Below are positions 41,847 to 56,949 of a stretch of DNA of 64,000 bases, piece after piece. The stretch is from positions 1 to 64,000 of the forward strand of contig SHBP01000004.1 in assembly GCA_004211905.1 (NCBI GenBank), written 5' to 3'. Source of the stretch: SAR92 clade bacterium (GTDB lineage: Bacteria > Pseudomonadota > Gammaproteobacteria > Pseudomonadales > Porticoccaceae). The stretch's first letter is position 1. The number at the start of each line of letters is the position of its first letter. Position numbers and translations under genes: made by a program. The notes under the pieces are model-generated. The model was given only the letters and a program-made list of their open reading frames with translations, had not been told where the DNA came from and made no database searches.

Positions 41847-41913
41847 TGGCATTTATTCCGAATAAAATGGCACCATTCGCCTTGTTCGTTTTCTAAACTC
41901 TGTCTAGCATTAT
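41847..41913 (+). promoter_or_regulatory. AraC-type promoter element, copy A (ligase gene)
   Basis: A 67-bp element nearly identical to the one at 47030-47096 (59 of 67 bases). It carries TGGC half-sites at 41847 and 41868, 21 bp apart (TGGCATTTATTCC and TGGCACCATTCGCC), then TTGTTC (41882-41887), a 17-bp spacer and TAGCAT (41905-41910). Two-helical-turn direct repeats next to the -35 are typical of AraC-family activation. The start codon lies 60 bp beyond. Confidence 0.7.
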
Positions 41914-41973
41914 TGGGCAGGACTGGGGTGCAGCGGAAGGTTGTATTCATTAAAAAATATTAAGGGCACATTT

Positions 41974-43506
41974 ATGTCATCGTCACAATCAGCAGAAATT
42001 GGTTTAGGTCACACTATTCTTCGTAGAGCCTCGCTTACTCCTAACGCAAGAGCTCTCACTTTTGAGGGACAAACTTGGACCTGCGCCGAACTGGGCGACA
42101 GAGTTCGTCGGTTGGCAACGATATTGCTCGATGGCGGAGTGTCTCGCGGAGATCGAATTGGTTATATAGGGCTTAATCACCCTGCCTTTTTGGAGCTGTT
42201 ATATGCCTGTGGTTGTGTTGGTGCGGTCTTTGTACCATTAAATTTCCGATTAACTGGACCTGAGGTGCGGTTTATCGGCAATGATTCAGATATTACTGTC
42301 ATGTTTGCTGATGACATGTTGCGGCCACTGATCGAGAGTGAAAAATCAAACCTTAACTGTTCTCGCTACTTAACTATTGAATCAGATGCAGAGGGTTGGG
42401 AGCCATTAGCGCCCTTAATGGAGAGTGCGTCAGCGCTCGCAGAGAGTGAGCATGTGGATGCTGATGAAGTTGCTTTTATCATGTATACCTCAGGTACTAC
42501 TGGGCTTCCGAAGGGAGCGATGCTGACCCATGGCAATATTTTTTGGAACAGTATTAACGTTTGCTTTGGTGAAGACACCATGACCACCACCACTCTAACC
42601 TGTGCGCCACTATTTCATATAGGTGGCCTAAACGTCACGACGCTACTTTCCTTGGCAAAAGGTGTAGAAGTCGTTCTGCTACGGAGTTTTGAGCCAGGAG
42701 AGGTGTTGAGGCTAATCGAGGAACATAAAGTTGGCAGTATGTTTGGTGCGCCTACTATGTTTTTAATGATGGCTCAGCATGAAAATTTTGAGAAAACTGA
42801 TCTTTCGACTATTAGTACGTTGATTTGTGGTGGAGCGCCAGTTCCGGTGCCATTAATTGAAACTTATGGAAAGAGAGATGTCAGTTTTTGCCAAGGCTAT
42901 GGCCTAACAGAAACTGCACCTTTTGCCAGTTTGCTTAGTAGTGACTTGGCTATGGTTAAAGTAGGTTCGGCGGGTAAGGCTCCGATGTTTACTGAGGTTC
43001 GAATTGTGGATGAAAATAATAATTCAGTAGCTGCCGGCGTCCATGGGGAGGTTTGTATCAAAGGGCCTAATGTGATGAAGGGGTATTGGAATCGACCAGA
43101 TGCGACAGCGGAGGCGATCGACGAACTTGGTTGGTTCCACAGTGGAGATATTGGCTATTTAGATGACGAGGATTTTCTGTATCTATGTGATCGAGTGAAA
43201 GATATGGTGATTACTGGTGGTGAAAACGTATACCCAGCTGAGATAGAGAGCATCTTATATGGCCATCCTGCGGTTCTCGAGGTGGCAGTTATCGGTTTAC
43301 CCGATGAGAAGTGGGGGGAGGCGGTAACGGCAGTCGCTGTTCTTGAGGATGGTGCAACGCTTGATCTTGAAGGGTTACGAGCTTTTGCGGGGGAGTCCCT
43401 CGCTCGCTATAAGCTGCCCAGCGAACTGCGTATTATTGACATACTGCCCCGCAACCCCGCGGGCAAGGTTCAGAAGTTTAAGTTAAAAGAGCAATTTGAC
43501 GTTTAA
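41974..43506 (+). CDS. Acyl-CoA synthetase (AMP-binding), regulon member
   Basis: A 510-residue ANL ligase: P-loop YTSGTTGLPKG at 171-181, YGLTETAPF, hinge YLCDRVKDMVITGGENVYP and the catalytic Lys in PRNPAGKVQKFK. The ATG at 41974 (MSSSQSAE) follows AAGGG; an upstream in-frame ATG at 41941 lacks a Shine-Dalgarno sequence. Its promoter element matches that of the acyl-CoA dehydrogenase at 47138, so it probably activates the acid whose CoA ester that enzyme oxidises, an AtuH-like role. It sits between metY and the imu genes, and its end overlaps the convergent imuB by 4 nt. Confidence 0.88.
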   Translation: MSSSQSAEIGLGHTILRRASLTPNARALTFEGQTWTCAELGDRVRRLATILLDGGVSRGDRIGYIGLNHPAFLELLYACGCVGAVFVPLNFRLTGPEVRFIGNDSDITVMFADDMLRPLIESEKSNLNCSRYLTIESDAEGWEPLAPLMESASALAESEHVDADEVAFIMYTSGTTGLPKGAMLTHGNIFWNSINVCFGEDTMTTTTLTCAPLFHIGGLNVTTLLSLAKGVEVVLLRSFEPGEVLRLIEEHKVGSMFGAPTMFLMMAQHENFEKTDLSTISTLICGGAPVPVPLIETYGKRDVSFCQGYGLTETAPFASLLSSDLAMVKVGSAGKAPMFTEVRIVDENNNSVAAGVHGEVCIKGPNVMKGYWNRPDATAEAIDELGWFHSGDIGYLDDEDFLYLCDRVKDMVITGGENVYPAEIESILYGHPAVLEVAVIGLPDEKWGEAVTAVAVLEDGATLDLEGLRAFAGESLARYKLPSELRIIDILPRNPAGKVQKFKLKEQFDV

Positions 43507-44999
43507 GAAAATAGACCATGGACAAACCAGCGTTTGTTTGTGGTCTCCCTAAATATCCAGTAGCGAGCGCCTTTACTATCACAAGCAAGATAGTAATCGC
43601 GCTGTTGCTCGGACTGCCACCAGTTACCGCAAAGACGCTCTGGGCCGCTAATAATCGTCAGTGGTCGTCTCCAGTAGAGTTTTTGGTTGCGCTCTTGTAT
43701 GGGTGTTGGTTCGTTTAATAACCATAATGGCTGAGGGGCTTTCGATGCTATATAGTTGGTTTTAGTGTTCTTGCTAGGAGGCTGAGTATTGCCGGCTAGT
43801 TCTGGCAAATATTCTTCGCTTGTAACAAGCTGTGATAGCGCATCGACACCTAGTCTGGCATATAGTTTATCGATTAACTCAGAAGCTTGATTGTCCAATA
43901 AAACCTGATTACCAAATAGATCAAAGTTAGATTCAGTTACATCTACGAACTGATTACAAGACAGTGATACTCGCTCAATACTTTGAGGTAGTTCTAAAGA
44001 CTCTAGCTGTAGGCGACTTAAAGTAAGTAGACTAGACCAATTATTCTTACTGCTAGACAAGTTTAGAGCCATAGTTTGGTGATCACCCAGTAGGGGTTCA
44101 AAACGCCAACTTAACTGAGAGCAGTGACACTGTCTTGCTATCAGATACTGAGAAAAGCGTTGTAATAACGTCTTCATCGGGAATAAAAGGCTTTCTTTAC
44201 TGTATAGGCCTTGAGTGTTCTGAATTTCATCATAAAATTCGGTAGAGGGTTTAAAGCGAGTTGAAGTGCAAGGTTTTTGCCCCTGTAGTAATTGGAGGGT
44301 AGTCATTAACTCGCTGCTAAAGCGCCGACTTAAAGCTGAACGTGGAAATTTGAGAAGATCTCCTATGGTTTTAAGGCCCAATTGCTTAAAGCTCTGTTGT
44401 TGTTTTAGTGTGCTTGGTAGCTTATCTATTCTTGTAGCGACCAAAGCGCACTGTATTTCATGGCTATTAGGCAAATGCTTGTGAAACTGACTGCCACAAA
44501 GTAATTTTGCTGCCAATGGGCTCTCTCCAACCCCAGTAACTATAAAGGCTACTTGCATTAATAGTTTCGCTTGGAGTCTTTTTAACCATTCTTGATAGCT
44601 TTGGAAGAGCTGCTCGCAACCTGATAGGTTCAGCCATAATCCATTAGTATCTACTATAACTTCGGGACTGAAGCTGTAGCTAATCAGGGCTAACCGCTGA
44701 AGTAATCGCTCTTCTTGTCGTATGTTTTTTACTACTACCATTAGTTGAGGGCATATAGCTAAGGCAGTTGAAAGGGAGAGAGAAGGCTCAATACCCCAAG
44801 TTTTAGCAAGTTGGTTGCAGCAGACGATGCGTTGTGCATTTTTTTGCGGGCTTGATATGGCTATGGGCTTGTCTACAGGCAGTTTATCCATGTCTAAGAG
44901 TACAGCCTCAATTGCTAGTTCAGGAAAATGCACATATAGCCAAATGTTTTGCATATCTGGCTTAGAGCAACGCTGATGCTTTTTACTTTGTTTTTTCAC
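43503..44999 (-). CDS. imuB: ImuB, inactive Y-family polymerase-like mutasome protein
   Basis: A 498-residue Y-family-like protein. The N-terminal LYVHFPELAIEAVLLD lacks the usual catalytic DMDxFYA motif, as expected for ImuB, which is not a polymerase but bridges the beta clamp, ImuA and DnaE2. The C-terminal YYLACDSKGARYWIFRE segment is typical of ImuB. GTG at 44999 lies 3 nt after the imuA stop and suggests coupling; ATG at 44954 (MQNIWLYVHFPE) is a fair alternative. It is co-transcribed with imuA from a LexA-controlled promoter. Confidence 0.9.
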   Translation of the reverse strand: MKKQSKKHQRCSKPDMQNIWLYVHFPELAIEAVLLDMDKLPVDKPIAISSPQKNAQRIVCCNQLAKTWGIEPSLSLSTALAICPQLMVVVKNIRQEERLLQRLALISYSFSPEVIVDTNGLWLNLSGCEQLFQSYQEWLKRLQAKLLMQVAFIVTGVGESPLAAKLLCGSQFHKHLPNSHEIQCALVATRIDKLPSTLKQQQSFKQLGLKTIGDLLKFPRSALSRRFSSELMTTLQLLQGQKPCTSTRFKPSTEFYDEIQNTQGLYSKESLLFPMKTLLQRFSQYLIARQCHCSQLSWRFEPLLGDHQTMALNLSSSKNNWSSLLTLSRLQLESLELPQSIERVSLSCNQFVDVTESNFDLFGNQVLLDNQASELIDKLYARLGVDALSQLVTSEEYLPELAGNTQPPSKNTKTNYIASKAPQPLWLLNEPTPIQERNQKLYWRRPLTIISGPERLCGNWWQSEQQRDYYLACDSKGARYWIFRETTNKRWFVHGLFS

Positions 45000-45002
45000 A
45001 GC

Positions 45003-45740
45003 CTAGGCATTCAGATGTTGAGATTCATCATTTTGTAGCAATTGATAGGTTGATGGTTCTTTCGGTGGGTAACTAATATTAACTGGCAGCTGTTCTAGTT
45101 GAGTGCGCTCTGTCTGTAAGTTATTAAGTATGACCTCTGTTTTTGCCCCTGGATTTTTCCCTTTTAGTTTGTGTAATGTGACTGAAAGAACGTTAGCTTT
45201 ATGAGTCTGAAGCCCAATACGCAAACGTGCTGGAGAGGGCGCCTTAAGAGAGTTCTCTGTACTAAACAAAAATGCAGGAGAATAGCTTTCTACCGCAGCG
45301 AGCTGTAATTTACGCAATTCAGCATAGCGTGGCCGAGAGTTATTAGTCCATGCAAATAGAATGGCATTGCTACGAATAGACTGTTCCGCTGCCCATAGCC
45401 ACTCTTTGCTATTTTTACTACGGACGACCAATAACTGCTCCAAAGGTATTTCTGCGTTCACTAAACTGGGCGCGTAAGGTTGATAAGGAGGGTCTAACCA
45501 AACACATAATGTATCTCTACAGGCATAATGCTTCATGGTTGGCAGTAGTAAACTTAGCTCACCTATACCATCTTGTTGGCTCACTAATTCAGTAAGAGCT
45601 GACACCGGCCACCCACCCAGTAGTAGATTGTCTAGATTTTTATCTCCGGTACTTATGGTGTGTTTTCGCAGTGATCGGTTACGACCCTGCCAAGTATCTT
45701 GCCTTAGAAATAATGCATTAAGTAAATTTTTGCTAGACAT
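45003..45740 (-). CDS. imuA: ImuA, SulA/RecA-like mutasome protein
   Basis: A 245-residue protein with the RecA-like fold of ImuA: ISTGDKNLDNLLLGGWPVSALTEL-type start, split here into ISTGDKNLDNLLLGGWP followed by VSALTELV, and LLPTMKHYACRDTLCVWLDPP. It works with ImuB and DnaE2 in damage-induced translesion synthesis. A LexA box lies 30 bp upstream and imuB follows at 3 nt. The cassette normally ends with dnaE2, but here dnaE2 is 3.5 kb downstream. Confidence 0.87.
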   Translation of the reverse strand: MSSKNLLNALFLRQDTWQGRNRSLRKHTISTGDKNLDNLLLGGWPVSALTELVSQQDGIGELSLLLPTMKHYACRDTLCVWLDPPYQPYAPSLVNAEIPLEQLLVVRSKNSKEWLWAAEQSIRSNAILFAWTNNSRPRYAELRKLQLAAVESYSPAFLFSTENSLKAPSPARLRIGLQTHKANVLSVTLHKLKGKNPGAKTEVILNNLQTERTQLEQLPVNISYPPKEPSTYQLLQNDESQHLNA

Positions 45741-45990: not shown

Positions 45991-47019
45991 ATGACAGACT
46001 TCCCAGATCAGAGTATTAATTCCTCGTGGTCCGTTTATGCGGCCCCTCTGATCACTATTTTACAAATTGCTGAACAACTAGGCTTAAACCATAACAGTCT
46101 ACTTGTAGAAGTGGGTTTAGATGCAAAAGAGTTAAGTATCCCTGATCGTCGATTCCCAGTAATGATTTATTATCGCCTCTACGAGGCTGTTGCTAAAGAA
46201 TCCAATGATCCAGATATCGCCTTAAGTGTAGGGCGCATTAATTACCTTAAAGGGTTAAATTTCCAGTTATACATGTCAACGGTGTGTAAGTCGTTTCGGG
46301 ATTATCTCAATCTTATGCCTAGCACCTTAAAGCTACGTGGTGATTTAGGTGAAATTAGGGCTCATCGTGAAGGAGAACTAGTTGAGTTGTGCTGGGAGCC
46401 ACTTCTGCTGGGTACTCAACGGAAGCGTTTTTTAACAGATGAGATGTTGTCAGTCTCAGTCATGATTATTAATTCTATTTGTATCATGCCGGTTAAAGTC
46501 GTTAAGGTTCATTTTACTTACCCAAAACCCAAAAATTTAGTCAATTTAGAGATTCTATTCGGCACTAATCTCAGTTTTGACCAACCGAAGAGTAGTATTT
46601 TTTTTCATCGAGATTGTCTTGATTTCCCAATGTTACAGCAAGATTATCAGGGAGCACCTGACCATAGTCATCCTTTTCAAGCCTTTTTCGAGGATGAGGA
46701 TCCATCAGATGAATTGTTATTTAGCCTCAAACAATCAATAGCCCAATACCTACCTGAAGGGGACGTTACTATTGATAAATTGGCAAGTAAGTTAAATGTA
46801 TCTCGACGAACATTACAACGTCGCCTGTCAGAACGTAACACTAGCTTTTTAAATGTTTTGCAGGAGGTAAGATCTCAGGTAGCTTTGCGATACCTAGCGG
46901 ATGATCGTCTTGCCATTACTGAGATTGCTTTTCTTTTAGGCTATGCCGATCAAGGTTCATTCTCTAGTGCATTTAAAGGTTGGCATGGTGTTTCTCCAAG
47001 AGATTACCGCAGAAAATAG
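45991..47019 (+). CDS. AraC-family transcriptional regulator
   Basis: A 342-residue regulator with an N-terminal effector domain of the arabinose-binding-like type (about 20-210) and a C-terminal AraC double helix-turn-helix (about 255-342): KLASKLNVSRRTLQRRLSER, then ITEIAFLLGYADQGSFSSAF and HGVSPRDYRR. This architecture occurs in regulators of lipid, sterol or hydroxy-acid catabolism. The gene lies directly upstream of an acyl-CoA dehydrogenase gene whose promoter holds 21-bp-spaced TGGC repeats. I infer that it controls the four similar sites in this region. Its own upstream region lacks such a site. Confidence 0.88.
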   Translation: MTDFPDQSINSSWSVYAAPLITILQIAEQLGLNHNSLLVEVGLDAKELSIPDRRFPVMIYYRLYEAVAKESNDPDIALSVGRINYLKGLNFQLYMSTVCKSFRDYLNLMPSTLKLRGDLGEIRAHREGELVELCWEPLLLGTQRKRFLTDEMLSVSVMIINSICIMPVKVVKVHFTYPKPKNLVNLEILFGTNLSFDQPKSSIFFHRDCLDFPMLQQDYQGAPDHSHPFQAFFEDEDPSDELLFSLKQSIAQYLPEGDVTIDKLASKLNVSRRTLQRRLSERNTSFLNVLQEVRSQVALRYLADDRLAITEIAFLLGYADQGSFSSAFKGWHGVSPRDYRRK

Positions 47020-47029
47020 AAATTCTTAT

Positions 47030-47096
47030 TGGCATTTATTCCCAATAGAATGGCGCCATCCGCCTTGCTCGTTTTCCTAACTCTGTCTAGTATTAT
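47030..47096 (+). promoter_or_regulatory. AraC-type promoter element, copy B (acyl-CoA dehydrogenase gene)
   Basis: This element is 59/67 identical to copy A at 41847-41913. TGGC half-sites lie at 47030 and 47051 (21 bp apart), TTGCTC at 47065-47070, then 17 bp and TAGTAT (47088-47093). The element starts 11 bp after the araC gene ends and is 41 bp before the next start codon. Confidence 0.72.
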
Positions 47097-47137: not shown

Positions 47138-48310
47138 ATGTCCTTAGATTTTGATAGCGCACGATTGCCCAACACTCGTTTAAAGCCTGAGCACCATGAG
47201 TGGAGAGCTCAGTTACGACGGTTTTTTGATCGTGAAGTCATCCCCTATGCCGACCAGTGGGATGAAGATGGGTGTATTCCCGATGAGCTTTGGCCTAAGT
47301 CAGCAGAGGTGGGTATATTAGGGTTAGGTTATCCAGAGGAATTTGGCGGCGTTTCGAAAGGAATTGATCTCTGGTACTCCATTATCCTTAATGAAGAAAT
47401 GTCGCGAGTTGCAGTGGGCGGTCTTGGGGCAACATTAATGGTACATGGGATTGGCTTACCGCCGGTTATCAATTTTGGCAGCGACGAGATTAAAAAGATG
47501 GTTGCGCCGCCAGTATTGGCCGGTACAAAGCGTATCTCACTAGCAATTACAGAGCCGGGCGCAGGATCTGATGTAGCTCACTTAACCACAACAGCGCGCT
47601 TGGATGACGATCACTATGTCGTCAATGGTTCTAAAACCTATATCACTGGGGGTATGAATGCTAACTGGTTCACAACAGCGGTTCGTACCGGCGGTGAAGG
47701 TGCAGGAGGAGTATCTACCTTATTGATACCTGCTGACGCAGAGGGTGTTTCAAGAACGGCCCTGGACAAAAAGCAAGGCTGGTGGTGTTCTGATACAGCA
47801 ACGATTTATTTTGACAATGTTTGTGTTCCTGTTGGCAATTTAATTGGTCAGGAAAATAAAGGTTTCAGCGTCATCATGAATAACTTTAATGCAGAAAGGC
47901 TGGCTATGTCTGCAGCGATGGAAGCTTTTTCAAGAGTCTGTCTTGAGGACGCCGTTGCCTGGGCTAGTGAACGCAAAACCTTTGGCAAGCGACTGGCTGA
48001 TCATCAGGTTATTCGCCATAAGATTGCCGATATGAAAATGCGCATCAATGCCACCCAAGCATACCTGCAGTTAGTATGTCAGCAAGTGCAGGATGGCCAA
48101 GAGAGTGCAGGAGACATTGCATTGCTAAAAGTTCAATGTAGTCAAACAATGGAGTTTTGTGCCCGCGAAGCGATGCAGATTCTTGGAGGTATAGGCTATA
48201 TGCGCGGCAATAGAGTTGAGCGTATCTATCGAGAGGTCAGAGTTAATGCAATTGGTGGTGGCTCAGAAGAGATTATGCGAGATTTAGCCACACGACAGTT
48301 TGGCCTTTGA
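47138..48310 (+). CDS. Acyl-CoA dehydrogenase (~390 aa type)
   Basis: A 390-residue FAD acyl-CoA dehydrogenase with LAITEPGAGSDVAHL, the SERKTFGKRLADHQ flavin-contact segment and C-terminal IGGGSEEIMRDLATRQFGL. The usual YEGT catalytic Glu position reads GGGS, so the base is probably on another helix, as in long-chain and isovaleryl-CoA dehydrogenases. The linked AraC gene and the promoter element shared with a CoA ligase suggest it oxidises a branched acyl-CoA, an AtuD-like role; this is inference. Confidence 0.9.
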   Translation: MSLDFDSARLPNTRLKPEHHEWRAQLRRFFDREVIPYADQWDEDGCIPDELWPKSAEVGILGLGYPEEFGGVSKGIDLWYSIILNEEMSRVAVGGLGATLMVHGIGLPPVINFGSDEIKKMVAPPVLAGTKRISLAITEPGAGSDVAHLTTTARLDDDHYVVNGSKTYITGGMNANWFTTAVRTGGEGAGGVSTLLIPADAEGVSRTALDKKQGWWCSDTATIYFDNVCVPVGNLIGQENKGFSVIMNNFNAERLAMSAAMEAFSRVCLEDAVAWASERKTFGKRLADHQVIRHKIADMKMRINATQAYLQLVCQQVQDGQESAGDIALLKVQCSQTMEFCAREAMQILGGIGYMRGNRVERIYREVRVNAIGGGSEEIMRDLATRQFGL

Positions 48311-48383
48311 GAATTATCAAGAGAGTTTGTGCGTTGAATATATTGTTAGACCTGTAAAAGAATGCAAAGAACAATCGCCTAAA

Positions 48384-48415
48384 GAATACCCCGATACAAA
48401 AACAGCGGGGCATTC
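48384..48415. terminator. Terminator-like hairpin between convergent genes
   Basis: GAATACCCCG pairs with CGGGGCATTC (one mismatch) around a 12-nt loop. There is no T tract, so it may be only an mRNA 3'-end structure. Confidence 0.35.
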
Positions 48416-48431
48416 TCTAGTAAAAAAGCGA

Positions 48432-48731
48432 TTAGGCCAAGATAGGGCCTAATTTCATTGCGATACTCATATCACCCTGTACCTTAAGCTTTCCAGACAT
48501 GAAGGCACCCATTCCATCAAGATTGCCTTCAGCCATCTCCATAAAGTTCTCAATACTAATCACCATGGTGCATTGGGCATCAGCATCTTCATTAGAGATC
48601 GTATTAGGTACTTGAGTGGCATCTAGAAAAAGCGCCCCATCGTCGCCAAAATCAAATTTTAAAGTTGCGCCTAAACCGCAATCTTCCCCAATTTTTTCTT
48701 TTAAACCTGCAGTGACAACATCTAAAGACAT
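48432..48731 (-). CDS. Stand-alone SCP2 sterol-carrier domain protein
   Basis: A 99-residue protein consisting of one SCP2 domain: KFDFGDDGALFLDATQ, AQCTMVISIENFMEMAEG and the C-terminal GAFMSGKLKVQGDMSIAMKL, which is the most conserved SCP2 stretch. Such domains bind lipids, fatty acyl-CoAs or sterols in a hydrophobic tunnel. Its place among acyl-CoA catabolic genes suggests a lipid or acyl-CoA binding role, not proven. Confidence 0.85.
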   Translation of the reverse strand: MSLDVVTAGLKEKIGEDCGLGATLKFDFGDDGALFLDATQVPNTISNEDADAQCTMVISIENFMEMAEGNLDGMGAFMSGKLKVQGDMSIAMKLGPILA

Positions 48732-49121
48732 GTGTTAAGCCCTCTATTCAAAATTAGTATCACACTGGCTTTATAGCAGTGCGTTGTTTATGACACAGGT
48801 ACTGTAAAAACCTCTAGCGTTAAAATCAACCTTCTAGTTTATTTCAAATCAATTATCTTTTTAGTTTTTAGGGTAAATACAGTGTACATATGGCAAAAAA
48901 GCCCATCAATTAATCGCGTTACGGCTTTTTAATTTTTTAAAGTTCTAGATATTTTGATGATGAGTTCATGTTGCTGTGCTGGGATTAAACGGTTGGCGCG
49001 ATTAGCTAGCAGGTTGGCATTGATAACGGTGAATAACGGGACTTAATTGATTACCCTAACGTGATGACGAGATATCTCATCTAAGTTAGACTCGCAGCAC
49101 GATAAAATAGGGAATATACAA
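48732..49121. other. Divergent control region SCP2 gene / MFS gene
   Basis: A 390-bp space without a convincing ORF. It holds a terminator-like hairpin, AAAAAGCC (48896-48903) with GGCTTTTT (48923-48930), and the AraC-type repeats at 48991-49018. The left 150 bp are AT-rich. Confidence 0.5.
48991..49057 (+). promoter_or_regulatory. AraC-type site C (MFS transporter gene)
   Basis: GGTTGGC occurs at 48991-48997 and again at 49012-49018, exactly 21 bp apart; the second continues GCATTGATAAC, like the TGGCATTTATTCC half-site of copies A and B. At the same offset from the second TGGC as in those copies (37 bp) stands TACCCT (49052-49057), a weak TAnnnT -10. No good -35 is seen, as in activator-dependent promoters. 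Confidence 0.5.
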
Positions 49122-50438
49122 ATGGACCAAATTAAGTCTACCCCCAAAGCAACGGGAATATTATTGTTTCTGTTGCTTCTAAACATTTTAAATATGGTAG
49201 ACAGAACACTTATTACCAGTTTTGGCTCTGCAATTATAAAAGACCTGAACTTGAGTGACTCCCAATTTGGGCTATTAACCGGGCCTATATTTGTGTTCTT
49301 TTACTCCATTATGGGTTTATTTATGGGGGCGCTAGCTGATCGAGTTCATCGTCCGCGTCTAATTGCTGCTGGCCTGCTGCTATGGAGTGCTTTAACAGCC
49401 GTGTCTGGCATGGCTAAAAACTTTGTTCAAATTGGCGTTGCTCGCCTATTTATTGGTGTTGGTGAGTCTGCCATGACACCCTCCGCCATATCGATGATTT
49501 CAGACCTTTTTCCGAAAGCAAGAAGAGGCACAGCCACAGGTATTTATTATCTTGGTGTCCCCTTAGGTGCAGGGGGTAGTTTTATAGTGGCCGGCATTCT
49601 CGGGCCTATGATTGGCTGGCGCAATTGCTTTTTCCTTCTAGGTGGAATTGGGGTGGTTTTGGCCTTGGGGCTGCTGTTTTTAAAAGACCCCAAGCGTGGT
49701 GCTATGGAGGAAAAAGAAGACTCCATGGCCCCAGAGCAGGAAGAAGCCTTGCTCGGTGGTGATTGGCGCAGGGTGATATCTGATGTCTTGCTAGTTGTGA
49801 GGTCTACCCGTGCCCTGGCATGGACAATGTTAGGAGCTGTTTTTCTTCACGTGCCGTTGGGCGCTGGGCAGTTTGCTATTGTTTGGTTAGAGCGAGAGCG
49901 TGGGTTCGGGCTTGGAGAAATCAGCGCAACCTACGGCCTTATTTACATAATATTTGGGACAGCGGGCACGTTTTTAGGAGGCATACTTAGTGACTGGTAT
50001 CAATCTCGCTTCAAAGGGGGCAGAGTTAGGTTTTTAGCTTACCTAATGCTTGGTGTTGCACCGCTGTTGGTATCATTCCGGTTTGTTTCCCCTTCGTCGC
50101 CATTATTTTACATTGGCATGGCCGCCGGTATGTTTAGTGTGAGTTCGTTTTATGGCCCTGCATTTTCAACGGTTCAAGATCTTACTCCCGTTCGCTTGCG
50201 AGGAGTCATGACAGGTTTGCTGTTGGTAGCCTGTAATTTGTTGGGCCTAGGAATAGGTGCAATGATGACGGGGTATCTTAGCGACATCTTTTCGGCTTAC
50301 TCGATATTTGAGCCTCTAACCAAAGCTTTATTAACCGCTGATATTGTCAGCTGGGCTGCTCCGGCAAGCTTTATTCTAGCGTCTATTTACCTTGAGAGAT
50401 CAAAAGAGCCGGGCTTAGCGTCCCATTTGCGTAACTAG
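49122..50438 (+). CDS. MFS transporter (spinster-like)
   Basis: A 438-residue major-facilitator permease with about 12 transmembrane helices. DRTLITSFGSAIIKDLNLSD after helix 1, the GALADRVHRPR loop 2-3 motif and GVGESAMTPSAISMISDLF place it near the spinster-like/organic-anion MFS group, common next to catabolic genes in marine gammaproteobacteria. A GGGA RBS precedes the ATG. It probably imports the substrate of the following operon; no specificity can be read from the sequence. Confidence 0.87.
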   Translation: MDQIKSTPKATGILLFLLLLNILNMVDRTLITSFGSAIIKDLNLSDSQFGLLTGPIFVFFYSIMGLFMGALADRVHRPRLIAAGLLLWSALTAVSGMAKNFVQIGVARLFIGVGESAMTPSAISMISDLFPKARRGTATGIYYLGVPLGAGGSFIVAGILGPMIGWRNCFFLLGGIGVVLALGLLFLKDPKRGAMEEKEDSMAPEQEEALLGGDWRRVISDVLLVVRSTRALAWTMLGAVFLHVPLGAGQFAIVWLERERGFGLGEISATYGLIYIIFGTAGTFLGGILSDWYQSRFKGGRVRFLAYLMLGVAPLLVSFRFVSPSSPLFYIGMAAGMFSVSSFYGPAFSTVQDLTPVRLRGVMTGLLLVACNLLGLGIGAMMTGYLSDIFSAYSIFEPLTKALLTADIVSWAAPASFILASIYLERSKEPGLASHLRN

Positions 50439-50442
50439 TTAT

Positions 50443-50506
50443 TGGCATGGGCTCTCATATTGATGGCATCTAATCCAAAGACGCGATAATCATCACAACG
50501 TACTAT
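50443..50506 (+). promoter_or_regulatory. AraC-type site D (atuA-like operon)
   Basis: TGGCAT occurs at 50443-50448 and 50464-50469, 21 bp apart; the second half-site TGGCATCTAATCC resembles TGGCATTTATTCC of copies A and B. TACTAT (50501-50506) stands at the conserved 37-bp offset. The start codon is 47 bp beyond. The -35 is poor. Confidence 0.55.
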
Positions 50507-50553: not shown

Positions 50554-52374
50554 ATGAGTGGGGAAACGATTCGTATTGCAGGTGCTAGCGGCTTCTGGGG
50601 AGATGCAGCTCGCTCAACGCCTCAGCTATTAAAGGATGAAGATGTCGATTTCATTGTCTATGACTACTTAGCTGAGATCACTATGTCCATCATGGCTCGT
50701 GCAAGAGCCAAGAACCCTGACAATGGCTATGCGCTTGATTTTGTCAGCGCAGTGATGAAACCTAACCTAACAGAAATTGCCAGACAGAGTGTGCGAATTG
50801 TCTCAAATGCTGGGGGTGTGAACCCCCGTGCGTGTGCGGATGCACTGCGTAGTGTCATTGCTGATTTAAACCTTGATTTAAAGGTGGCCTGTGTTTTGGG
50901 TGATGACATGATAGGGCAGCGTGATGAAATTGCCGCGCAGGGCCATAAAGAAATGTTCTCGGGAGATGAGTTTCCCGATGTATCTAAGGTTGCCAGCATT
51001 AATGCCTATTTAGGTGCGTTTCCCGTGGCGAGAGCCTTGCAGGAAGGAGCGGATATTGTCATTACCGGGCGAAGTGTTGATAGTGCCGTCACATTGGGAG
51101 CCTGTATCGATGCATTCGGTTGGGGTCGTGGTGATTTAAACCAACTAGCCATGGGGTCTCTTGCAGGGCATATTTTAGAGTGCGGCCCTCAGGCGACAGG
51201 TGGTAATTTTACTGATTGGGAACTCTCTAATAATCTTGAGAATATCGGTTATCCAGTGGCTGAGATTAGACAAGATGGTAGTTTTCTCTGCTCAAAGCCC
51301 AAGGGCACCGGGGGGCTTGTTTCAGTGGGTACAATTGCTGAGCAGATGGTTTACGAGATTGGTGACCCTCAAGCTTACATTTTGCCCGATGTGGTTTGTG
51401 ATTTTTCCGAGGTTGAGCTGACTCAGATAGGCAAAGATTTAGTTGAAGTAAAGGGTGCAACTGGTTTGCCAGCACCGGATAGCTATAAGGTGTGCTGCAC
51501 CTACGCCGATGAGTTCCGTGGCGGAACCACCATGACTTTTTATGGCTTTGATGCTGATAAAAAAGCACACAAGCTTGCCGACGCGATCTTTGCTGCGTCT
51601 CGCAGTACACTCAAGAAGAAGGGTATGTCTGATTACAGCGAGACAAGCGTAGAGCTTATTGGCGCTGAAAGTCAGTATGGTATTAACGCAGCTGTGGCTT
51701 CTTGTCGCGAATTATCCATGAAGATAGCAGTCAAGCACTCAGACCCCGCGGGAATCGGCATATTGTTAAAAGAATGTGTTGGTTTGGGTCTTGCAACGCC
51801 ACCAGGGTTATCTGGCTTTCAAGGTGGGCGACCTAAGCCCTCGCCGGTAGTTCGATTATTTTCCTTTGTACAGCCCAAGGGTAGGGCCCGTATTCAAATT
51901 GAAATTGATGGCACTTATATTGAGTGTCCAGACTCAGAGGGCACCACCCTTGTTCGTGAAGACATTATTCGTCCTGCAGAGCCTCAGTTGCCAGAGGATG
52001 CAGAGATGGTGGAGGTCCCTTTGATCAAATTGGCCTGGGGACGCAGTGGTGATAAGGGAGATAAGGCTAATGTTGGCATTATTGCGCGCCAGCCTGAGTT
52101 TCTCCCCTATATTTATGCGGCCTTGAGCGAAGAGATTGTTGCTCAGCGATTCTCTCATTTTTTACCTGAGGACGCGCCCAATCACAGCGCGTGCTATGTC
52201 GAACGTTACTTAATGCCGGGTTGCAACGGAATTAACTTTCTACTCCACCAAGTCTTAGGTGGTGGCGGTATGGCAAGTATACGAAACGATGCTCAGGGCA
52301 AAGGGTTTGGGCAGTTGATGCTAGATGCGTCAATACCAGTAAGTGCAGAAATTGCAGATAAGATTAGTCAGTAG
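50554..52374 (+). CDS. AtuA-like protein (DUF1446 plus C-terminal ferredoxin-fold domain)
   Basis: A 606-residue protein: DUF1446 domain over about 1-450 (RIAGASGFWGDAARS at the start, then VRIVSNAGGVNPRACAD) and an AtuA-like C-terminal domain (KLAWGRSGDKGDKANVGI). AtuA is required for acyclic terpene (citronellol/geraniol) use in Pseudomonas, but its reaction is unknown. The start is ATG 50554, with GGAG 9 nt upstream; an in-frame TTG at 50524 is rejected. It is the first gene of an operon with carboxylase and hydratase genes, the same set that surrounds atuA in Pseudomonas. Confidence 0.85.
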   Translation: MSGETIRIAGASGFWGDAARSTPQLLKDEDVDFIVYDYLAEITMSIMARARAKNPDNGYALDFVSAVMKPNLTEIARQSVRIVSNAGGVNPRACADALRSVIADLNLDLKVACVLGDDMIGQRDEIAAQGHKEMFSGDEFPDVSKVASINAYLGAFPVARALQEGADIVITGRSVDSAVTLGACIDAFGWGRGDLNQLAMGSLAGHILECGPQATGGNFTDWELSNNLENIGYPVAEIRQDGSFLCSKPKGTGGLVSVGTIAEQMVYEIGDPQAYILPDVVCDFSEVELTQIGKDLVEVKGATGLPAPDSYKVCCTYADEFRGGTTMTFYGFDADKKAHKLADAIFAASRSTLKKKGMSDYSETSVELIGAESQYGINAAVASCRELSMKIAVKHSDPAGIGILLKECVGLGLATPPGLSGFQGGRPKPSPVVRLFSFVQPKGRARIQIEIDGTYIECPDSEGTTLVREDIIRPAEPQLPEDAEMVEVPLIKLAWGRSGDKGDKANVGIIARQPEFLPYIYAALSEEIVAQRFSHFLPEDAPNHSACYVERYLMPGCNGINFLLHQVLGGGGMASIRNDAQGKGFGQLMLDASIPVSAEIADKISQ

Positions 52375-52407: not shown

Positions 52408-54030
52408 ATGGCGGTATTTACGTCGAAGATAAACACTAGTTCAGAGACTTTCTTACGTCAGCGAAAAGAGATGCTTGAGCTTGTTGATAGGCTTAATGAG
52501 CTAAATGGACGCGGTCGAGCTATATCTGAGAAGCGAAAGCCGCGCTTTGATGCCCGCGGACAGCTAACACCGCGTGAGCGTTTAGCCCGTCTGCTCGACC
52601 CAGGCATGCCTTTTTTAGAGATCGGCAACATTGCCGGTTATATGGTAGATACCAAGAAAGAAGAAAAATCTATTCCTGGGTCAACGGTTATTTCGGGTAT
52701 TGGCTTTATTTCCGGTGTGCGCTGTGTGGTTGTGGTTGATGATAGCGGTATTTTAGCTGGCTCCTTAACTACTGCGGGCGGTTATAGAATTCGTCGCGCT
52801 GAGCAAATCTCTCTGGAACAAAAATTACCCTTTGTTCATCTGGTAGAGAGTGCTGGTGGCGACCTGATGAACTACACCGTAGAAGGCTTCAGTGTTGGGG
52901 GAGCATTGTTTGGTTCTCTCGCACAGTTGAGTAAAGCCGGTATTCCGGTAATTTCTATACTGCATGGCTCGTCTACCGCAGGAGGGGCCTATATGCCGGG
53001 CCTTAGTGACTATGTTATTGCCGTTAAGGGTAGGGGGCGGGCTTTTTTAGCCGGGCCACCGCTGCTTAAGGCAGCTACAGGTGAAATAGCCACCGAAGAG
53101 GAGTTAGGCGGGGCAGAAATGCATGCGACTATCTCGGGCTTGGCTGAATACCTTGCCGAGAATGACGGTCAGGGGCTGCAAATATGCCGCGAAGTCGTCG
53201 ATCGCCTGCAGTGGAATGATAACTGCCCATTACCCCCCAAACGATCGTTTCTTGAGCCAATTTACGACCCCGATGAGCTAGCAGGAGTCATTCCTACAGA
53301 TTACCGCATACCTTATGACATGCGTGAGCTAGTCGCCCGAGTGGTTGATGGCTCGGACTTCCTAGATTTTAAACCGCGTTTTGGCGTCTCCACCGTCTGT
53401 ATACAGGCCGAAATTTTTGGTCAAGCAGTGGGTATTATTGGTAACAATGGCCCAATTGACCCTCAGGGTGCCAACAAGGTCACTCAGTTCTTGCAGTTAT
53501 TAGACCAGGCCAATATTCCTGCATTATTTTTTCAAAATACCACCGGCTACATTGTTGGCACCAAGTCTGAGCAAGCGGGCATGATTAAGCATGGATCGAA
53601 AATGATTCAGGCGGTGCGCAACATTGATGTGCCGCGCATTACCTTTATGACCGGTGCTAGCTTCGGAGCCGGTAATTACGGCATGTGTGGGCGCGGTTAC
53701 GATCCAGACTTCCTTTATACCTTCCCCAACGCCAAAATGGGTGTAATGGGCGGAGAGCAGGCTGCTAAGACCATGTCTATGGTCGCCCGTGGTAAAGCGA
53801 CCGCTATGGGCGTAGATGCAGACGAGGAAATGCTGGCTCAACAAGAAAAGATGCTTGCGCATATCTTCGACTCACAATCAGATGCTTTTTATACCTCCGG
53901 CCACATGATGGACGACGGTATGATTGATCCTCGAAACATGCGTAAAACCTTGGGAATGTTGCTAGAGACGGTGCGTGAAGGCCGTTGTAGAAAATTGCGT
54001 CCCAACAGCTTTGGTGTAGCCCGTCTGTAA
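52408..54030 (+). CDS. Acyl-CoA carboxylase beta subunit, geranyl-CoA carboxylase-like (AtuC-type)
   Basis: A 540-residue carboxyltransferase subunit of the methylcrotonyl/geranyl-CoA carboxylase family, with GSSTAGGAYMPGLSDY and NTTGYIVGTKSEQAGMIKHG motifs. With the biotin subunit encoded at 54940 it would carboxylate a 3-methyl-2-enoyl-CoA. From memory of published geranyl-CoA carboxylase work, a Gly replaces the acyl-pocket Phe of the methylcrotonyl enzyme; here that region reads SVGGALFG (162-169), with Gly at the position aligning to the Phe. This favours a longer acyl chain. No crotonyl-specific evidence was seen. Confidence 0.85.
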   Translation: MAVFTSKINTSSETFLRQRKEMLELVDRLNELNGRGRAISEKRKPRFDARGQLTPRERLARLLDPGMPFLEIGNIAGYMVDTKKEEKSIPGSTVISGIGFISGVRCVVVVDDSGILAGSLTTAGGYRIRRAEQISLEQKLPFVHLVESAGGDLMNYTVEGFSVGGALFGSLAQLSKAGIPVISILHGSSTAGGAYMPGLSDYVIAVKGRGRAFLAGPPLLKAATGEIATEEELGGAEMHATISGLAEYLAENDGQGLQICREVVDRLQWNDNCPLPPKRSFLEPIYDPDELAGVIPTDYRIPYDMRELVARVVDGSDFLDFKPRFGVSTVCIQAEIFGQAVGIIGNNGPIDPQGANKVTQFLQLLDQANIPALFFQNTTGYIVGTKSEQAGMIKHGSKMIQAVRNIDVPRITFMTGASFGAGNYGMCGRGYDPDFLYTFPNAKMGVMGGEQAAKTMSMVARGKATAMGVDADEEMLAQQEKMLAHIFDSQSDAFYTSGHMMDDGMIDPRNMRKTLGMLLETVREGRCRKLRPNSFGVARL

Positions 54031-54060: not shown

Positions 54061-54882
54061 ATGAGTGATCTAGCTAAAACACAGTTACCCACAACGAACG
54101 CGCTGGTTTTAGAGCGCCAAGACTCTGTTCTAAAGGTCTGGTTTAATCGGCCTGAGGCTAAGAATGCCCTGAACACAGAAATGACTGATGAGCTCGTTAA
54201 CGTGCTCAGCTTGGTTAAAGACGACCGCAGTATTCGCACTATTGTGTTGCGTGGCAAAGGTGGCGTCTTCTGCGCAGGCGGGGACATCAAGGGCTTTAAG
54301 TCTGACATGCAGTCGGCTGATGCTGATGAAGTAGCCAAAGGTAATCGCTCCTTCGGTGACGTTATGATCATGCTTAACGAGCAACCTCAAGTCGTGATTA
54401 TCTTGGTGGAGGGTGCCGCCATCGGCGGAGGGCTAGGCCTTGCCTGTGTTGCTGATGTGACTTTGGTTACCGCAGATGCACGTTTCCGCCTAAGTGAGAC
54501 TAGTTTAGGCATCCCCCCTGCGCAGATTGCACCCTTTGTCACTGAGCGTGTCGGTCTTACCCAAGCTCGTCGTCTTATGCTTACCGGTGCGCGATTTAAG
54601 GGAGAAGAGGCGGTCAAGTTGGGCATTGCTCATGGGGTTGCCGACAATGTTGGAGATCTTGAGGCGCAATGCGAGGCTATTTTACAGCAAATTAATGCCT
54701 GTGCCCCCGGTGCCAATGCGGTAACTAAAGGCATTCTTTTTGAGACCTTACGCCGTCCGAGAGCAGAAGCATTGGATTTTGCATCGCGAGGTTTTGCCCA
54801 ATGCATGCTCAGTTCAGAGGGTATGGAGGGTGTCGCAGCTTTTGTAGAGAAACGTAAAGCTTATTGGAGCGAAGAAGCCTAG
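54061..54882 (+). CDS. Enoyl-CoA hydratase/isomerase, AtuE-like
   Basis: A 273-residue crotonase-fold protein: FNRPEAKNALNTEMTDEL, oxyanion segment GVFCAGGDIKGF and GAAIGGGLGLACVADV, then LSETSLGIPPAQIAPFV. In the carboxylase pathways this enzyme hydrates the 3-methylglutaconyl- or isohexenylglutaconyl-CoA made by the carboxylase. Its place between the two carboxylase subunit genes, as in atuC-E-F and liuB-C-D, supports this. Leucine and terpene versions cannot be separated with certainty by eye. Confidence 0.85.
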   Translation: MSDLAKTQLPTTNALVLERQDSVLKVWFNRPEAKNALNTEMTDELVNVLSLVKDDRSIRTIVLRGKGGVFCAGGDIKGFKSDMQSADADEVAKGNRSFGDVMIMLNEQPQVVIILVEGAAIGGGLGLACVADVTLVTADARFRLSETSLGIPPAQIAPFVTERVGLTQARRLMLTGARFKGEEAVKLGIAHGVADNVGDLEAQCEAILQQINACAPGANAVTKGILFETLRRPRAEALDFASRGFAQCMLSSEGMEGVAAFVEKRKAYWSEEA

Positions 54883-54939
54883 CGGCACTTGATTTACAGA
54901 TATAAACCATGCAAAACAGATATTTAGGTAAATATATTG

Positions 54940-56949
54940 ATGAACAACTTTAATAGCATATTAATTGCCAACCGCGGCGAAATAGCCTGTCGAGTTATCC
55001 GTACGGCTAAAAAGCTGGGCTACCGAACAGTGGCTGTTTACTCTGATGCTGACGCGGGTGCACCACATGTTAAGTTGGCAGATGATGCCGTGCGCATTGG
55101 TTCTGGACCTGTTGGCGAGTCTTACTTGGTTCCAGAGCTAATTTTGCAAGCAGCTGCTAGCAGTGGCGCTGAATCCATCCATCCTGGTTACGGTTTTCTT
55201 AGTGAAAATGCGGCCTTTGCTGAAGCAGTAGAGAGCGCAGGATTGGTGTTCATCGGGCCGACGCGCGAAGCTATTGATGTCATGGGTAATAAGGCGGAGT
55301 CTAAGCGGCGCATGATTGAAGCTGGGGTGCCCTGTGTGCCAGGTTATGAGGGCCATGACCAGAGTGACAAAACTCTGATCGCAGAGGGGCTTAAGATTGA
55401 TTTACCTCTTATGGTTAAGGCAGCCGCCGGTGGTGGCGGTCGCGGCATGCGGTTGGTCCACGACCAAGCTGATCTTGCTAATGCCATCAAATTAGCTCGT
55501 GCCGAAGCGGAAGGGGCCTTTGGTTCAAGCGAGCTTATCCTTGAAAAAGCCATTATTGAGCCTCGGCATGTCGAAATACAGGTATTCGCTGACACCTTCG
55601 GTAACACCGTGCATTTGGGCGAGCGTGATTGCTCGGTGCAACGGCGTCACCAGAAAGTCATTGAGGAAGCACCCTGTCCGATAATGACCCCAGAACTGCG
55701 TGAGAAAATGGGCCAGTCGGCCATTGATGCTGCTAAAAGTGTTAGTTATCGCGGTGCAGGAACGGTTGAGTTTTTACTTGACGATAGCGGCTTCTTTTAC
55801 TTTTTGGAAATGAACACTCGCCTCCAAGTTGAACATCCTGTGACCGAACTTATTACGGGTCTAGACCTAGTGGCGTTGCAAATCAGTGTTGCCCAAGGCG
55901 AGCCTCTTGATTTTAGCCAAGCCGATCTCGATTTAGAGGGTCACGCCATTGAAGTGCGCTTATACACGGAAGACCCAAGCCAAGATTTCTTGCCAGCCTC
56001 TGGCCCAGTGGACCTGTGGGCGCCAGCCTCTGGTGTTGGCGTGCGAATTGATGATGGTATTTCCACTGGGCAGGCCATTTCACCGTTTTATGATCCCATG
56101 GTGGCCAAAGTGATTGGCTACGGTCCAACTCGCGAAGCTGCGCGGTTGAGGTTGATTGGCGCGCTTAAAGAAACCGTTCTGTTTGGCACGCCAAGCAACA
56201 AAGACTTCTTGATTCAGTGTCTAGAAAAGCAGAGCTTTATTGATGGCGCAGCAACAACTGCCTTTATTGGTGAAGAGTTCTCCGCAGCTGACCTTGATGT
56301 AGCGCCGGTGAGCTTTTTGGATAGTGCAGTCGCAGCAACGCTAGAACTTTGTTTAGAGAATAAAGCCCATTTTCAACGCAGTCTGCTAGTGAGTTGTGAG
56401 CTTAAAAATTGGACTATTGCTAGTGCTATGGTGTCGCGCAAGCAATATCAATTCGTTGGTATTACTCATGACCTGTCAATATCACCCATTAATAGCAGCG
56501 CAGACACTTACCATGTCGCTGACACTGCAGCGGAGCAAAGTGCAGTGATACAGGTAATATCCATGCAGGACAACAAAGCTGTTGTGCTATTTGATGGGGT
56601 TAAGTTAGTCGCTCAGTTTATTCAGCGCCAGCGCGGCCAAATGTATTGCTCTATTCAGGGTCGCGGTGCCTTCTTTAAGGACCTCATCATCCTTGATGGG
56701 GTGGTGGATGACGCCGAGGGAGGAGGTCGAGTGATTGCTCCAATGCATGGACTCCTGCTTGAAGTTATGGTTAGCGCTGGTGATGACGTTGTTAAAGGGC
56801 AAACTCTAGCTGTGCTTGAAGCGATGAAAATGCACTATGAGATACTTGCAGAGGTGGATGGTAACGTAGAGGAGGTTAGTGCAGTGGCGGGTAGCCAAGT
56901 TGCAGTCGATGATGTATTAATTGAAATCAAAGAAAAAGATGATAGTTAA
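54940..56949 (+). CDS. Acyl-CoA carboxylase biotin carboxylase/BCCP alpha subunit (AtuF-type)
   Basis: A 669-residue fusion of biotin carboxylase (ILIANRGEIACRVIRTAKKL; ATP-grasp with AAAGGGGRGMR; EMNTRLQVEHPVTE) and a C-terminal biotinyl domain with VLEAMKMHYEI (biotinylated Lys at about 630), joined by a BT-like middle domain. It carboxylates its own biotin and passes CO2 to the beta subunit. The start is ATG 54940; a TTG just before it is less likely. Length is near that of AtuF and LiuD. Together with the beta subunit it forms the expected alpha6-beta6 enzyme. Confidence 0.88.
   Translation: MNNFNSILIANRGEIACRVIRTAKKLGYRTVAVYSDADAGAPHVKLADDAVRIGSGPVGESYLVPELILQAAASSGAESIHPGYGFLSENAAFAEAVESAGLVFIGPTREAIDVMGNKAESKRRMIEAGVPCVPGYEGHDQSDKTLIAEGLKIDLPLMVKAAAGGGGRGMRLVHDQADLANAIKLARAEAEGAFGSSELILEKAIIEPRHVEIQVFADTFGNTVHLGERDCSVQRRHQKVIEEAPCPIMTPELREKMGQSAIDAAKSVSYRGAGTVEFLLDDSGFFYFLEMNTRLQVEHPVTELITGLDLVALQISVAQGEPLDFSQADLDLEGHAIEVRLYTEDPSQDFLPASGPVDLWAPASGVGVRIDDGISTGQAISPFYDPMVAKVIGYGPTREAARLRLIGALKETVLFGTPSNKDFLIQCLEKQSFIDGAATTAFIGEEFSAADLDVAPVSFLDSAVAATLELCLENKAHFQRSLLVSCELKNWTIASAMVSRKQYQFVGITHDLSISPINSSADTYHVADTAAEQSAVIQVISMQDNKAVVLFDGVKLVAQFIQRQRGQMYCSIQGRGAFFKDLIILDGVVDDAEGGGRVIAPMHGLLLEVMVSAGDDVVKGQTLAVLEAMKMHYEILAEVDGNVEEVSAVAGSQVAVDDVLIEIKEKDDS

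Follow-up and report, generated by a model that had tools for sequence, protein, structure and literature searches.

A predicted AraC-type regulon with a shared promoter geometry on an Atu-type gene cluster of a SAR92 clade bacterium

Do the direct TGGC repeats that precede several genes of a catabolic cluster in this SAR92 clade genome belong to one regulon, and which protein would read them? We analysed a window of 64,000 nucleotides, the whole stretch of DNA under study, for which a first-pass annotation had proposed a four-promoter AraC regulon from pairs of TGGC at a 21-bp period. The TGGC positions given there for an MFS transporter gene (48994 and 49015) and an atuA-like operon (50443 and 50464) are correct, and TAnnnT does begin 37 bp from the start of the second TGGC in both cases (TACCCT at 49052 and TACTAT at 50501).

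Geometry of the sites and the genes they precede

The pattern TGGC-N17-TGGC-N33-TAnnnT has exactly four matches on both strands of the 64-kb window (41847, 47030, 48994 and 50443), all on the plus strand and all upstream of genes of one cluster. Across 100 dinucleotide shuffles of the window, the full pattern occurred 0.06 times on average and once at most, and 0/100 shuffles reached the four matches seen, in line with the earlier view that the fixed geometry makes chance less likely. When 800 combinations of gap (8-39) and offset (20-44) were compared, only the 17/33 cell held three or more matches (four, with a cell mean of 0.066), and a 400-kb sample of the window's own genome held a single full-pattern match, which is a further conserved site, termed E below. 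The TGGC-N17-TGGC pair without the -10 is weak evidence in the window (six matches versus 2.22 expected, with 3/100 shuffles reaching six) and was set aside as evidence in its own right. It is the full geometry that is remarkable, not the TGGC pair alone.

Site A (41847..41910, plus strand; half-sites 41847-41863 and 41868-41884, -35 at 41882-41887, -10 at 41905-41910) is the predicted promoter of an acyl-CoA ligase gene (41941..43506, plus). Site B (47030..47093, plus; half-sites 47030-47046 and 47051-47067, -35 at 47065-47070, -10 at 47088-47093) precedes an acyl-CoA dehydrogenase gene, acd (47138..48310, plus), and site C (48994..49057, plus; half-sites 48994-49010 and 49015-49031, -10 at 49052-49057), the weakest member, precedes the MFS transporter gene (49122..50438, plus). 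Site D (50443..50506, plus; half-sites 50443-50459 and 50464-50480, weak -35 at 50478-50483, -10 at 50501-50506) stands before an operon that begins with the gene for an AtuA-family protein (50554..52374, plus; PF07287 and PF23544, start placed at ATG 50554) and continues with genes for an acyl-CoA carboxyltransferase subunit (52408..54030, plus), an enoyl-CoA hydratase (54061..54882, plus) and a biotin carboxylase plus biotin carrier subunit (54937..56949, plus). Site E, which has the exact geometry, lies 2.3 kb past the window on the minus strand (contig 66280-66343), at the putative promoter of another acyl-CoA dehydrogenase gene, acd4.

In site columns, the half-sites occupy 1-17 and 22-38, the -35 occupies 36-41 and the -10 occupies 59-64, leaving 17 bp between -35 and -10. 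The half-site consensus is roughly TGGCAYnnATTCCnAAG; the -35 is TTGCTC-like in B and a poor, AAGAC-like sequence in D and E. Column 38, the third base of the -35, is G in 42/43 aligned sites (alignment A2), a base that the selecting pattern did not ask for, with one of the 43 (L270) picked by a matrix covering that column. This arrangement, in which direct half-sites recur at about 21 bp and the proximal one overlaps a predicted -35 located 17 bp before a predicted -10, is that of a class II AraC-type promoter, and the 37-bp offset, as judged from these predicted elements, is the spacing of such a promoter.

Conservation and history of the sites

We scanned the 2.28-Mb genome with model R1, built from 33 sites of relatives with no window site in training, and recovered D (E-value 5.5e-12), B (0.0023) and A (0.0068) with nothing else below an E-value of 0.1, so this model does not match random intergenic DNA equally often. 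Model R2, of the same type with the E sites of other genomes added, recovered D, E, A and B at E-values from 7.3e-10 to 0.0137 (3.1e-8 for site E); weak R2 matches also appeared at C1:192845 (0.087) and C23:102481 (0.17). In leave-one-promoter-out tests over both strands of the window and the 400-kb sample, each matrix was trained without any site of the promoter in question, A and B being omitted jointly and D along with A, and A, B, D and E each outscored every non-member position. Matrices trained without E still recovered E, and those trained without A and B still recovered A and B. A matrix from D sites alone did not place A or B among its 12 best positions, and the matrices therefore had to pool promoters. 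The shuffled-sequence test and the matrix scan of this genome and its relatives, both suggested by the first-pass annotation, support its reading of the sites. Its four-promoter regulon is well supported for A, B and D and moderately for C, but the count was too low, site E bringing the promoters to at least five. Upstream of araC itself, where a site would suggest autoregulation, none was among the best-scoring window positions listed.

To score conservation, we applied a matrix from the relatives' B and D sites to 450 bp upstream of each gene at p<0.01, counting the genome's own locus in every set and dropping three loci with too short an upstream stretch (L045, L088 and L203). Upstream of atuA, 28/29 loci scored at this level (the own locus, 20 training loci and 7 untrained relatives), the sole miss being G090, which lacks the AraC orthologue. 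Upstream of acd4, 29/30 loci did so, none of them used in training, with a miss in G025. Site B is exact in 21/29 relatives' loci that hold an araC orthologue, with a -10 offset one shorter in one. Among the other eight, CGGC replaces the distal TGGC in one, and the spacing, read by eye, is 20 bp in three (L027, L028 and L031). In G022 and G046 the site has been kept at an acd that is relocated, G044 gives an R1 match at 1.7 kb from its araC, and the stretch from G002 stops at a contig end. Some promoters, namely MFS promoters of relatives (L069, L070 and L179) and L265, carry three TGGC at 21-bp steps.

Site A is identical to site B at 56/64 positions, compared with 18/60 and 16/60 positions outside the site, and the likeness is limited to the module of about 64 bp that runs from the activator half-sites to the -10, spacer included. 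Site A is evidently a copy of site B. The earlier description of the four sites as having unrelated flanks is right for C and D. It fails for A and B, and because these two are copies of each other the geometry amounts to three independent cases, not four. Upstream of the ligase gene, only 3/30 loci, own included, scored at p<0.01 and 27/30 fell below; a D-like site stands there in G024, G030 and G045, and the other relatives have none. Since relatives have a different site or none before the ligase, copy A would have arisen in this lineage.

Site C is likely a real but labile member of the regulon. It was not found by R1 or R2 at E <= 10 in the genome-wide searches, its -10 (TACCCT) is poor, and only 4/29 MFS loci, own included, score at p<0.01, all of which would suit the idea that C matches the pattern by chance, within a spacer rich in A+T, and that the regulon consists of A, B, D and E only. 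We regard this idea as unlikely, because C-like sites with similar letters occupy the same place in G015 and in G023 (the latter a pair without a good -10), and G012 and G040 have C-like sites as well. In addition, a C-like site in G007 precedes an APH-family gene that itself stands before MFS, and G003 and G027 hold decayed C copies at the corresponding spot; in the window's genome the APH gene is absent and site C stands directly before MFS. Among 797,480 sampled positions, site E alone reaches the score of C, and when C was omitted from training a single position outscored it, contig 78924 in the candidate site before a TonB-dependent receptor gene. ORFs resembling the APH-family gene of G007 also occur in G003, G024 and G027, and in the 48310-49122 interval where this gene is missing here, a small SCP2-family ORF is left (48432-48731, minus strand).

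The candidate before the TonB-dependent receptor gene (contig 78861-78924, minus; L191 14861-14924) ranked first among the non-members in each of the five leave-out tests, and 26 of its first 31 bases, counted by eye, are the same as in site E. Conservation scoring gave 1/13 TonB-receptor loci at p<0.01, own included, so that the site was not conserved in the 12 other loci scored. We keep it as a candidate sixth member, which looks like a partial copy of E.

Link of the sites to the AraC-family regulator

The gene at 45991..47019 (plus) encodes an AraC-family regulator of 342 aa, a probable activator, with a PF12625 N-domain and a C-terminal PF12833 double HTH domain that scores 79.0 bits versus a curated cut-off of 33.6 and places it in the AraC/XylS family. 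Judging from site architecture, conservation and co-occurrence with the gene, we consider it very probable that sites A-E are binding sites of this protein, acting as a class II activator. The regulator would bind the two direct half-sites 21 bp apart, one helical double turn, and since the proximal half-site ends on the -35, the bound protein would touch RNA polymerase and offset the poor -35. A branched or terpenoid acid, or the CoA ester of one, is the probable inducer, and the genes presumably switched on together would be the ligase (A), the dehydrogenase (B), the MFS transporter (C), the AtuA-carboxylase-hydratase operon (D) and acd4 (E).

Presence of the sites tracks presence of the regulator gene. 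An R1 match at E <= 1e-4 occurs in 32/35 genomes with the AraC orthologue (own included) versus 4/108 without it, a comparison inflated by kinship and by training sites shared from the same genomes. Of the four site-bearing genomes without an orthologue, G032 and G045 have paralogues only; araC fragments occur in G012, where a contig ends, and in G009, where a 3' fragment lies within a contig. In G090 and G061, both such genomes examined, atuA is present with neither the AraC orthologue nor the site. Besides a full-length araC, G027 carries a second one on contig 25 as a 3' fragment (L162 3888-4207), which is 90% identical to the one in the window and has its own B-like site.

The sites might instead be genuine AraC-type sites of which some or all, E and C above all, are bound by another AraC paralogue with a similar half-site. 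The genome holds six more AraC homologues, a similar motif is used by GliR of Pseudomonas, and G031, G047 and G049 (completeness 85, 76 and 80%) keep site E although no AraC orthologue, only distant AraC paralogues, were found in them. We nevertheless judge binding by a paralogue improbable. The best-scoring paralogue is 28% identical to the regulator (37% in the DNA-binding domain), the geometry is absent from the stretches around the six paralogue genes (L003-L008), and both the co-occurrence above and the recovery of E, A and B by leave-out matrices speak for a single protein. Moreover, in G133, a genome from another family whose AraC homologue is 37% identical, this homologue adjoins acd4, upstream of which three TGGC stand at 21-bp steps (read by eye); atuA of G133 lies on a different contig from araC and has a full site with TAGTAT.

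Distant orthologues also favour binding by the regulator itself. A match to it at E <= 1e-60 occurs in 35/143 genomes and in 40/390 genomes of the order, own included in both, and we examined the surroundings in 20 of the 30 genomes outside the family, with G110 and G133 in addition. The distant orthologues share 45-51% identity with the regulator and come from four other families. An acd orthologue (66-73% identical) is on the fetched stretch in 13/20, just downstream of araC in 11; these 13 stretches also carry a glutathione transferase gene (12), carboxylase genes (6) and AtuA (5). A TGGC pair stands within 200 bp upstream of acd at 13/13 of these loci, a count inflated by close relatedness, as 8/13 come from one genus and the rest from three other families. 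The spacing is 21 bp in seven and 22 bp in six, the latter admitted after 21 failed at those six, whereas control 200-bp windows from the same loci hold pairs at 21 bp in 54/2494 and at 22 bp in 27/2494; for the seven loci at 21 bp alone, the chance is 3e-9 assuming independent loci. The half-sites of these distant loci are very clear, as in L310 (TGGCACCAATTCCC and TGGCACCAATTCCCAAG). Where acd stands apart from araC (G022, L309 and L316), the site stays with acd. The count leaves out the 7/20 stretches without acd (L303, L304, L306, L308, L315, L319 and L320), of which L320 has a pair with one mismatch upstream of the carboxyltransferase gene; the fetched stretch of G110, whose AraC is 43% identical, has no acd either. 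The acd promoters of G133, G127 and G061 showed no pair at 21-bp spacing, the spacing searched; the AraC orthologue is absent from G127 and G061 and present in G133. In 10/10 orthologues compared, identity to the regulator is higher in the DNA-binding domain (49-83%) than in the N-domain (31-64%).

If the regulator binds these sites, it might repress rather than activate from them, given that a site overlapping the -35 could block polymerase and that AtuR, the established regulator of atu genes, acts as a repressor. This seems improbable to us, since XylS activates Pm from just this layout, a proximal half-site at the -35 and a direct repeat upstream of it, the layout also fits GliR, and the poor AAGAC -35 of D and E is as in activator-dependent promoters. 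That the likeness is simply inherited from copied promoters and has persisted by drift without function is hardly credible, for even though A was plainly copied from B, the half-sites, -35 and -10, which B, D and E have in common, are conserved over genera and families while the spacers, which those three sites do not share, have changed.

Comparison with known regulators and pathways

At the XylS-dependent Pm promoter, the proximal half-site overlaps the -35. The direct repeats found here fit a class II activator promoter, as they do at Pm, but the half-site differs (TGGC/TCC.AAG versus TGCA/GGTA), the N-domain here is PF12625 and the pathway here is not aromatic. The Pm site is described, in the relevant part of one account, as two direct 15-bp repeats, each made of box A, 6 bp and box B and read by two HTH motifs (PMC5481539). 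The portion of a second paper that deals with GliR (PA3027), a related AraC-type activator of Pseudomonas aeruginosa, reports glycerolipid genes as targets and a motif from ChIP-seq that includes GTGGCGTTATTCGCC; one of the GliR sites overlaps the -35 (PMC8151288). The half-site here closely resembles the GliR motif YYGGCGHTDTYSGMC, and GliR is the regulator's second-best NCBIfam match; unlike the present sites, no 21-bp direct repeat is described for GliR in that portion of PMC8151288. The regulator scores below the NCBIfam equivalogue cut-offs of both GliR (144.9 versus 570) and QhpR (167.5 versus 250), and we assigned it to neither.

AtuA, geranyl-CoA carboxylase-like subunits and an AtuE-like hydratase occur here together, the gene set of an Atu-type pathway. 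The best solved relative of the carboxyltransferase is geranyl-CoA carboxylase beta (5ikl), and that of the hydratase is 4zu2, a putative isohexenylglutaconyl-CoA hydratase; because these are their closest solved relatives, the cluster is by sequence predicted to be of the Atu (geranyl-CoA carboxylase) type. The carboxyltransferase scores 607.6 bits to geranyl-CoA carboxylase beta versus 431.9 to methylcrotonyl-CoA carboxylase beta, and the best score of the biotin subunit is to methylcrotonyl-CoA carboxylase alpha (536.0 bits). The cluster thus resembles the Pseudomonas atu (acyclic terpene utilisation) cluster in its AtuA-family, geranyl-CoA carboxylase beta-like and isohexenylglutaconyl-CoA hydratase-like proteins, but its regulator is of AraC type and several of its promoters carry direct repeats. 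AtuR of the Pseudomonas cluster is described, in the section of the source concerned with it, as a TetR repressor binding two 13-bp inverted repeats (PMC9973270). Allowing two mismatches, these repeats have two matches in the 64 kb (31572 and 58935) versus 2.24 expected, none of them before atuA, and an AtuR-controlled atu cluster was rejected.

What emerges is an AraC regulon on an Atu-type pathway, whose least expected part is the copied promoter module. The copying is unexpected because the ligase gene of the three relatives with a D-like site has that site, where here it has a copy of B with its spacer. Among the titles listed in searches of open-licence PubMed Central papers, none concerned this regulon. 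We tentatively suggest, with confidence falling just short of even, that an AraC-type activator present in several families of the order takes the place of the TetR-type AtuR, and that the regulon grows by copying whole 64-bp modules (A from B, with the TonB-receptor candidate resembling a partial E). The cluster genes resemble those that degrade branched, terpene-like acids. Catabolic clusters of this kind in marine bacteria, present in several families of the order, are poorly studied, and the locus supplies for them a regulator that can be tested, a sharply defined binding motif and a set of target genes, together with a clean case of a promoter module copied between genes of one regulon. 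Between the ligase gene and araC, here and in many relatives, lie ImuA and ImuB-like translesion genes (43503-45740, minus strand), which are apparently unrelated to the pathway.
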